From NCBI GenBank assembly GCA_018066715.1, contig JAGPWA010000082.1, forward strand, positions 1 to 32,148: a stretch of 32,148 nt of DNA, in the 5' to 3' direction. The translations under genes were made by a program, and so were the position numbers. Source of the DNA: Porticoccus sp. GTDB lineage: Bacteria; Pseudomonadota; Gammaproteobacteria; Pseudomonadales; Porticoccaceae. This document shows, one piece after another, positions 6,684 to 19,334 of the stretch (position 1 is its first letter; every line of letters begins with the position of its first letter). The notes beneath the pieces are model-generated. The model was not told the DNA's origin. It saw nothing but the letters and a program-made list of their open reading frames with translations, and did not search any database.

Positions 6684-7079
6684 GGGGGCGTTTTGGATTC
6701 GACGCCGGTTACAAAACCCTGGGTGCATGCCGAGATGGTGACCAATCTCGTTAATCCAAAGTCGCAAACTATTAGTTGCCAACGACGACAACTACGCACT
6801 CGCCGCCTAAGAAACGGTAGATTGCCATCTGACTGGAGCCGTGCTTGTGCGTCCAGCGCTTCATCTACCTTAGGGTAGCGGCGAAGCATTCAGGTGTCAT
6901 ACTCGCAAGATCGTGATGAAGCTCGTCCGGGGCGGATTCACTAAAAACTCACCGGAATCGCGGTTTACGCGCCCTGCCAGCCGGGCTGTAAAACGTTAAA
7001 TATAATAGACTGAACTAAGCATGTAGAGCCTTCGGCAGCGGACTGACGGACGCGGGTTCAATTCCCGCCGCCTCCACCA
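6684..7079 (+). ncRNA. ssrA: Transfer-messenger RNA (tmRNA, ssrA)
   Basis: The 396-base RNA rescues stalled ribosomes with SmpB. GGGGGCG at 6684-6690 pairs with the 3' CGCCTCC to form the 7-bp acceptor stem, followed by discriminator A and encoded CCA (7077-7079). GGATTCGACG follows the 5' stem as in other tmRNAs, and a GGTTCAATTCC T-arm loop lies near the 3' end. The reading frame for the tag resumes at GCC 6778 after TTAGTT and encodes ANDDNYALAA with a TAA at 6808-6810. With the alanine carried by tmRNA, the tag is AANDDNYALAA, typical of gammaproteobacteria. The last 18 bases are the attachment core of the island downstream and remain intact. Confidence 0.97.
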
Positions 7080-17926: not shown

Positions 17927-18490
17927 TTATAACCAGCGAGAGTTCTTGGAAAACTGACTTCGCAAAAACTCCATCTGATCCCCAAGAATACGGCGGGAAT
18001 TTATCAGCGCCAAATACTCAGCATTATTGGGCCTATAAGGTAGCGCCACCAACTCCATGCTGAGTTCTTCAAGTAAATAATTAGCCTTATGTTGATTGCA
18101 GCGCCGACAAGCTGCAACCACATTTTCCCATTTATCATCACCACCCCGAGACGTAGGTACAATATGGTCACGAGTCAGCTGACCTGAAGGAAGCTGCCGA
18201 GAGCAATACATACAAAGGTGCCCATCCCTGGCAAACAGGGCAGGATTATTGAGCGGATAGGTGGTACGTGGTCTGGCTAGATACTCACCGCCACAGGCAA
18301 TAATACTTGGCAACACAACCTGAGACTGCGTCCCCTCAGCTCGGGAATGACCTCCCTTCACCATTTTCACCACATCACCCAACGTCCAAACGACCATGTC
18401 CCTTGCGAAAAGACACACCGCCTCCTGCCAGAGAAGCCATTCAATCGGCTGACCCGCCATGTTGAGTCGCAAGATCCTAGGTTGCACCAC
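17927..18490 (-). CDS. HNH endonuclease family protein
   Basis: The 187-residue product has a Zn-binding HNH module: Cys93-x2-Cys96 (LCMYCSRQL), the catalytic-type Asp108-His109 (TRDHIVPTSRGG), Asn123 (WENVV) and Cys128-x2-Cys131-Asn132 (ACRRCNQHK). This chromosomal family starts with a conserved R-I-L-R-L-N-x-A-G-Q-P-x-E-W and is widespread in gammaproteobacteria, with no known function. GTG at 18490 is the likely start because GGAGG lies six bases before it and the conserved N-terminus begins just after; an internal ATG would cut into it. A plausible promoter lies at 18516-18543. Confidence 0.88.
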   Translation of the reverse strand: MVQPRILRLNMAGQPIEWLLWQEAVCLFARDMVVWTLGDVVKMVKGGHSRAEGTQSQVVLPSIIACGGEYLARPRTTYPLNNPALFARDGHLCMYCSRQLPSGQLTRDHIVPTSRGGDDKWENVVAACRRCNQHKANYLLEELSMELVALPYRPNNAEYLALINSRRILGDQMEFLRSQFSKNSRWL

Positions 18491-18815: not shown

Positions 18816-18852
18816 AAAATAAAGCCCTGATACATAGGCGTATCAGGGCTTT
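18816..18852 (-). terminator. Strong intrinsic terminator of the Rsm-like RNA
   Basis: AAAGCCCTGATAC (18821-18833) and GTATCAGGGCTTT (18840-18852) form a perfect 13-bp stem with a 6-base loop. On the minus strand it continues ATTTTG, a better U-tract than on the plus strand (TTTAAGG). Confidence 0.85.
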
Positions 18853-18975
18853 AAGGCAGTACAGGAACATGCTATCCGTTTATGGACTAAACAACCAACC
18901 ATCCGTGCTATTTCATGGTCTTGCACATCCGTGTGCAGCTGCTTCCATGCGCGAGAGACTATCTCCCTTTTACCT
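18816..18975 (-). ncRNA. Candidate RsmY/RsmZ/CsrB-type small RNA
   Basis: The minus strand carries five A-N-G-G-A-N motifs: AGGGAG (18963-18968), ATGGAA (18943-18948) and three copies of ACGGAT (18927-18932, 18901-18906, 18874-18879), spaced 16-27 bases. The middle one is the hexaloop of a perfect 5-bp hairpin, TGCAC-ACGGAT-GTGCA (18922-18937), the classic CsrA/RsmA binding form; the last follows a GTTTA/TAAAC stem as a single-stranded linker. A strong terminator (18816-18852) closes the unit. An 18-bp palindrome like a GacA/UvrY box lies upstream (19008-19025). Such RNAs titrate RsmA/CsrA. The 5' end is not determined and no clear -10 was found. Confidence 0.6.
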
Positions 18976-19007: not shown

Positions 19008-19025
19008 TGTAGGAAATAGCCTACA
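19008..19025. promoter_or_regulatory. GacA/UvrY-like palindrome
   Basis: TGTAGG-N6-CCTACA is a perfect 6-bp inverted repeat with 6-base spacing. The published Gac box for rsm/csr RNA genes is TGTAAG-N6-CTTACA, so this differs only at one symmetrical position. It lies about 40 bases upstream of the first GGA motif, on the correct side, and 20 bases before the possible xseB promoter. Confidence 0.55.
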
Positions 19026-19100: not shown

Positions 19101-19334
19101 GTGGCAGCTCGGAAAAAATCTGTTGATTTTGAACATAAACTCAGTCAACTGGAAATACTGGTCAGCGAAATGGAAAAGGGCTCACTAAGTCTTGAGGATT
19201 CACTCAAAGCCTTTGAAGATGGCATCAAGATTACTCGTGAATGCCAACAAGCACTCAAAGATGCCGAACAAAAAGTTGAAATGCTGACCCGAGACTCCGC
19301 TCAACCGACCCCCTTTGAGCCTGAGAACGAGTAA
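19101..19334 (+). CDS. xseB: Exodeoxyribonuclease VII small subunit
   Basis: The 77-residue product is the coiled-coil small subunit of ExoVII, which with XseA degrades single-stranded DNA. Family features are FEHKLSQLEILVSEMEKGSLSLEDSLKAFEDGI and the acidic tail. The start is GTG, with GGAGAG upstream. The TAA overlaps the ispA ATG by one base (TAATG at 19332-19336), so the pair is translationally coupled. The xseB-ispA-dxs order is common in gammaproteobacteria. xseA is not in the window. Confidence 0.95.
   Translation: MAARKKSVDFEHKLSQLEILVSEMEKGSLSLEDSLKAFEDGIKITRECQQALKDAEQKVEMLTRDSAQPTPFEPENE

Follow-up and report, generated by a model that had tools for sequence, protein, structure and literature searches.

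Does the gap between xseB and an HNH endonuclease-family gene in a Porticoccus sp. genome encode a small RNA that titrates CsrA? CsrA is a global regulator protein, and RNAs that serve as its sponges represent a well-known type of bacterial switch. The window analyzed here, a DNA stretch of 32,148 nucleotides, is one contig of a 2.33-Mb draft genome (153 contigs). A sequence-only reading of this window had noticed a group of A-N-GGA-N motifs followed by a terminator and had assigned it to the class of CsrA-titrating RNAs. That assignment is supported by the conservation of the GGA motifs, the presence of genes for CsrA, GacA-like, and GacS-like proteins, an upstream box, and the co-absence of the RNA with CsrA, and we consider it highly likely that the locus encodes a GacA-activated, CsrA-titrating small RNA.

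Motif Cluster and Genomic Setting

The candidate RNA sits between xseB, which starts at position 19101 on the plus strand, and the HNH gene (18490-17927) on the minus strand. The features of this region are as follows.

17927-18490, minus strand: HNH endonuclease-family gene, downstream neighbor (Pfam HNH_5 and HNH)
18817-18951, minus strand: predicted small RNA, ∼135 nt (5' end predicted from the -10 box, 3' end by the terminator)
18820-18853, minus strand: intrinsic terminator stem-loop, 15 pairs followed by TTTTG (in 15 loci, 99.4% of the cells pair)
18874-18879, minus strand: site 5, ACGGAT (some GGA in 15 of 15 genus loci, columns shift slightly)
18901-18906, minus strand: site 4, ACGGAT (GGA core in 15 of 15)
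18911-18916, minus strand: site 3, ATGAAA in the window, where the motif is degenerate (the remaining 14 of the 15 loci keep the GGA core)
18927-18932, minus strand: site 2, ACGGAT, in the loop of hairpin 18937-18922 (GGA core in 15 of 15)
18943-18948, minus strand: site 1, ATGGAA (GGA core in 15 of 15)
18958-18963, minus strand: -10-like box GATAGT (44 nt beyond the palindrome)
19008-19025, minus strand: GacA-box-like palindrome TGTAGGCTATTTCCTACA (TGTA-N10-TACA in 15 of 15 genus loci)
19101-19334, plus strand: xseB, divergent neighbor (Pfam Exonuc_VII_S)

The two genes mark the location of the RNA, and neither is proposed as its target. The original placement was upstream of xseB-ispA-dxs; the RNA is divergent from xseB and does not lead into it. 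No ORF of at least 60 amino acids overlaps positions 18816-18975, in agreement with the initial remark that no ORF explains the region. Elsewhere in the window, a tmRNA gene was detected at 6684-7079 on the plus strand (Rfam RF00023, 202 bits).

All five A-N-GGA-N motifs reported within about 95 bases are present on the minus strand, starting at 18968, 18948, 18932, 18906, and 18879 and spanning 95 bases; three of them are identical ACGGAT hexamers with the reported spacings of 26 and 27. In 5000 dinucleotide shuffles of 18816-18975, the mean number of such sites was 0.66, and not a single shuffle reached five. On the minus strand, a density of at least four motifs per 100 nt is found solely at this cluster, and the plus strand has at most three per 100 nt. 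However, the 5'-most motif, AGGGAG (18968-18963), overlaps the predicted -10 box GATAGT (18963-18958) and is probably not part of the transcript, so that four sites, and not the five originally counted, fall within the predicted RNA. Several A-N-GGA-N sites in one short noncoding RNA are a defining feature of the class, and the window RNA has four.

Conservation and Structure within the Genus

A DNA search recovered the locus in the source genome and in 14 of the 16 other genomes of the genus, and a covariance model found the RNA in 15 of the 17 genus genomes. In the alignment of these 15 loci, the GGA cores of sites 1 through 5 are kept in 15, 15, 14, 15, and 15 loci, respectively, while much else varies: of the 125 columns preceding the terminator, 40 are invariant. 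The GGA triplets of sites 1, 2, and 4 occupy fixed columns in all 15 sequences, and each genus RNA holds 4 to 6 GGA. The pattern that had been named in advance as evidence against this class of RNA, GGA motifs lost with the flanks kept, was seen in none of the 15 genus loci.

The hairpin with a motif in its hexaloop was found at 18937-18922, where stem strands TGCAC and GTGCA enclose ACGGAT. It does not appear in the minimum-energy fold of the whole window RNA (folding z = -2.6) but is present in the consensus fold of the 15 loci, in which sites 2 and 4 lie in loops, and its inner three stem pairs are invariant among the genus loci. For the structure that we chose, 95.5% of the cells pair in the 15 loci versus 94.4% in shuffles, and two-sided changes occur at four pairs versus 0.8 in shuffles (none of the 500 shuffles was as high); an alignment slid by +2 likewise yields four such pairs, so the covariation backing for the RNA structure should be viewed as modest. 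The terminator directly after the motifs is real, and its stem, at 18853-18820, has 15 pairs instead of the 13 bp counted earlier.

Predicted Promoter

The initial description overlooked an 18-bp palindrome, TGTAGG-N6-CCTACA, at 19025-19008, which we regard as the strongest evidence in favor of the reading that it proposed. This element resembles TGTAAG-N6-CTTACA, the consensus given in PMC4950607 for the upstream activating sequence of GacA, which is a point of likeness to RsmY, RsmZ, and RsmX. In 7 of the 15 loci (L009 to L015), the box has TGTAAT as its left half, making the palindrome imperfect. Exactly 44 nt past the box, 13 of the 15 loci have the hexamer GATAGT, one has CATAGT, and one has GATATT. 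A sigma-70 consensus scan detected no promoter at the position of this -10-like box, which would be consistent with an activator-dependent promoter.

The pattern TGTANGN6CYTACA occurs at two places in the source genome, with a match on both strands only at the RNA locus; a reversed control pattern also matches this genome, once per strand, so the pattern is not specific by itself. It was found somewhere in 14 of the 17 genus genomes, with several of the sites elsewhere and asymmetric, and the search overlooks genus members with TGTAAT boxes. One genus genome carries an additional GacA-box-like palindrome, TGTAGGCATTACCTTACA, away from the xseB locus (G013:C205:2081-2098, L075). The promoter rule (box, 44 nt, -10 hexamer) can be used to look for more such RNAs.

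CsrA, GacA-like, and GacS-like Proteins

The source genome encodes CsrA, the partner that the sequence-only reading had suggested looking for, with a score above the NCBIfam cutoffs; an aspartokinase-like ORF (identified by eye) lies upstream of its gene. The best GacA-family match in this genome scores 242 bits, below the curated cutoff of 280, and the GacA-like proteins of all the relatives in the genus likewise fall below 280. The GacA-like gene adjoins a murB-like ORF (by eye), and in a close relative, G016, uvrC (tested) follows a pgsA-like ORF (by eye) and precedes the GacA-like gene, after which comes a murB-like ORF. Two sCache_4 sensor-domain matches were found in the source genome, and the 895-amino-acid frame is the likelier of the two to be the putative GacS. 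The box, the GacA-like protein, and the sCache_4 matches would thus provide the upstream GacA (UvrY) box and the GacS/GacA system that characterize the class.

Among the 17 genus genomes, the RNA is found in 15, CsrA in 15, GacA-like matches above 200 bits in 14, and sCache_4 in 14. Two small genomes, G001 and G014 (1.3 and 1.2 Mb, respectively), are devoid of all four: the RNA, CsrA, a strong GacA-like match, and sCache_4. In addition, G013 has no strong GacA-like match, G004 has no sCache_4, and the sole CsrA of G006 is divergent (40.6 bits). The probability that the two RNA-less genomes coincide with the two CsrA-less ones by chance is 1 in 136 if genomes are independent, which they are not, and one shared loss may lie behind the co-absence in G001 and G014. 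The joint absence in these 1.2- to 1.3-Mb relatives suggests that the whole switch is discardable in genome reduction. Seven genus genomes contain a second, divergent CsrA match (G016:C2, G005:C15, G015:C3, G002:C121, G012:C3, G010:C5, and G007:C2) with scores of 22 to 49 bits, four of them below the cutoff of 27.

Comparison with Rfam Models and Known RNAs

The Infernal comparison with Rfam that had been proposed as a check came back empty: a cmscan of 4227 families yielded no match to the named families in the region at E values up to 10 (for the RsmY family, this result comes from the scan of all 4227 families only). The PrrB_RsmZ model (RF00166, gathering cutoff of 44 bits) has no match in the region and four subthreshold matches elsewhere in the source genome, and the CsrB model (RF00018, 71 bits) has none in either the region or the genome. 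Over 38 genomes, RF00166 produced subthreshold matches in 23 and none above the cutoff, with 6 of the 14 control genomes matching as well; the two best matches, in G013 and in G001 (which has no window-type RNA), were rejected as terminators with no A-N-GGA and no box. RF00018 matched 4 of the 38 genomes at E values up to 0.1, none above the cutoff; the controls that match this model are E. coli (above the cutoff), B. subtilis, and T. maritima. The best RF00018 match in G021 (E value of 3.7e-4, below the gathering score) is in a locus that carries xseB. A scan of 13 of the 14 other genus loci (L009 was left out) returned PrrB_RsmZ in L013 and NsiR1 in L007, the former ∼240 nt downstream of the RNA match and the latter inside the RNA; both were dropped as subthreshold, with E values above 0.5. 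Based on these comparisons, the RNA is filed in the Gac/Rsm sponge class by predicted function, and not under Rfam RsmZ or CsrB by score.

Similarly to RsmY, RsmZ, and RsmX of Pseudomonas, the candidate is a short, terminator-ended RNA with several GGA motifs and a GacA-box-like element in a genome with csrA/rsmA and gacA-like genes, but it is not recognized by the Rfam models and occupies a different locus (xseB-HNH). It also has only four GGA motifs, compared to the 7 given for RsmY in the available part of PMC4950607. With CsrB/RsmB it would share the proposed function, and its long orthologs L079, L085, and L087 weakly match RF00018, whereas the window RNA itself is short, has four sites, and does not match that model. 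A third comparison is with RgsA, a Pseudomonas small RNA also linked to GacA; PMC2375449 suspects GacA of acting on it indirectly and describes the motif upstream of RgsA as unrelated to the GacA palindrome, unlike the element upstream of the window RNA. No report of the RNA was found in the literature searched, which is weak evidence of absence as subscription journals were mostly outside it, and Porticoccus, SAR92, and HTCC2207 were not met among the literature matches listed.

Another family of the order has a GGA-rich locus, L180 (G031:C77:71243-71498), with a subthreshold CsrB match (E value of 8.7e-14) and 22 GGA in the 400 nt read; none of the queries (xseB, ispA, dxs, and HNH) matched there.

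Short and Long Forms in Other Genera

Outside the main set, 19 model matches were read, of which 11 are beside xseB and 8 are not. The 11 xseB-side matches come from other genera of the family and comprise seven short forms and four long ones. In the short forms (L076, L077, L078, L080, L081, L083, and L084), 129 to 162 nt were matched, with 4 to 7 GGA, and the box lies 49 to 50 nt ahead of the model start in all seven; the boxes of L080, L083, and L084 have an imperfect first base. The long forms L079, L082, L085, and L087, joined by L112, measure about 245, 339, 262, 263, and 366 nt (L112 being the last), as estimated from box to terminator, and contain 12, 19, 12, 14, and 15 GGA, respectively; all five have the upstream box, the first base of which deviates for L079, L085, and L087. 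RF00018 matches L079, L085, and L087 below threshold (E values of 0.027, 0.008, and 0.0042, respectively), weak matches of a kind also seen in two of the 14 control genomes, and it does not match L082, L112, or L104.

The occurrence of short and long forms at one locus is, in our view, the most interesting aspect of this system, offering an opening for studying how the number of binding sites in a sponge RNA changes. The balance tips slightly toward there being one orthologous Gac/Rsm RNA at the xseB-divergent locus, which within this one family has lengthened or shortened between an RsmY-like form (129 to 162 nt) and a CsrB-like one (245 to 366 nt). If so, the two textbook architectures would interconvert as GGA hairpins are added or lost while the GacA-boxed promoter stays fixed.

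The covariance model R1 yields weak chance matches, and the count of 43 of 112 family genomes overstates the presence of the RNA, given the eight non-xseB matches among the 19 read; the model may also overlook long forms, and L104 was missed in one search. L047, L048, L053, L054, L086, and L088 were rejected as instances of this RNA, having the look of ordinary terminators with 0 to 1 A-N-GGA. A GGA-rich region with long internal repeats and a terminator at its end was found in two genomes from a different genus of the family (G048 and G072), both among those that keep CsrA without the RNA at xseB; it lies upstream of and within positions 1501-1629 of L089 (on the minus strand) and L090 (on the plus strand). 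This region has no xseB match and no TGTA-N10-TACA in the 500 nt read and is possibly the CsrB-like RNA of these genomes.

Of the 49 named HNH loci, some of which are the same contigs as genomes with G handles, xseB is beside the HNH gene in 28, with a box-like element in 18 of them and none in 10. The ten box-less loci, which include HTCC2207 and SAR92 clade records, have intergenic lengths of 161 to 198 nt in eight cases and of 283 and 412 nt in the others. CsrA is encoded in 89 of the 112 family genomes, so many members of the family keep CsrA without the RNA at the xseB locus. Outside the family, xseB was matched in 111 of 115 genomes; 30 xseB loci were fetched, and none of the 26 from outside the family has a box-like element in the 900 nt upstream of xseB.

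Proposed Function and Alternative Explanations

We infer transcription, control by GacA, and CsrA binding and titration from the known class. A GacS-type sensor would drive the response regulator GacA, which would bind the upstream box and turn the RNA on; CsrA dimers would bind the several GGA sites of this RNA and thereby be drawn off the mRNAs that CsrA represses. The locus very probably represents a Gac/Csr-type RNA at a new chromosomal site in a marine bacterial family, which would place this switch in a mostly uncultured group, at a locus and with a sequence missed by the Rfam models.

Just 5' of the terminator, the genus loci share a strongly conserved, CCT-ATACTGC-like stretch that contains no GGA, and selection for something besides CsrA binding is possible. 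This favors an Hfq-type small RNA that works chiefly by pairing with mRNAs, with the GGA motifs being secondary; such a reading is nonetheless very unlikely, as the GGA cores are among the best-conserved positions and CsrA is indicated both by the GacA-like box and by the joint absence of the RNA and CsrA.

A CsrA-titrating free RNA also has to be distinguished from a cis-acting leader or 5' untranslated region of the HNH gene that contains CsrA sites. That gene is on the same strand and is the next one downstream both in the 28 named loci with xseB adjacent and, within the sequence read, in the 15 genus loci. However, a strong terminator ends the RNA unit, a second promoter-like element (TTGACA/TATGAT, 18799-18772; TTGACAG in 15 of 15 genus loci) follows past it, and the long forms L079, L082, L085, and L087 have no HNH match within the stretch read, making a leader even less probable than a base-pairing RNA. 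A chance GGA cluster beside an ordinary terminator has next to no credibility, being contradicted by the shuffles, none of which reached five sites, and already by the fixed-spacing conservation in the 15 genus loci and other genera.

Between the RNA and the HNH gene, the minus strand of the window holds a further conserved unit (18799-18609), which begins with the promoter-like element at 18799-18772 and has no Rfam match. A conserved motif with CTTCA, which reads GCCTTCAA at most of the 15 genus loci, is part of this unit, as is a separate terminator at 18638-18609. The unit could encode one more small RNA or form a leader through which the HNH gene is attenuated.
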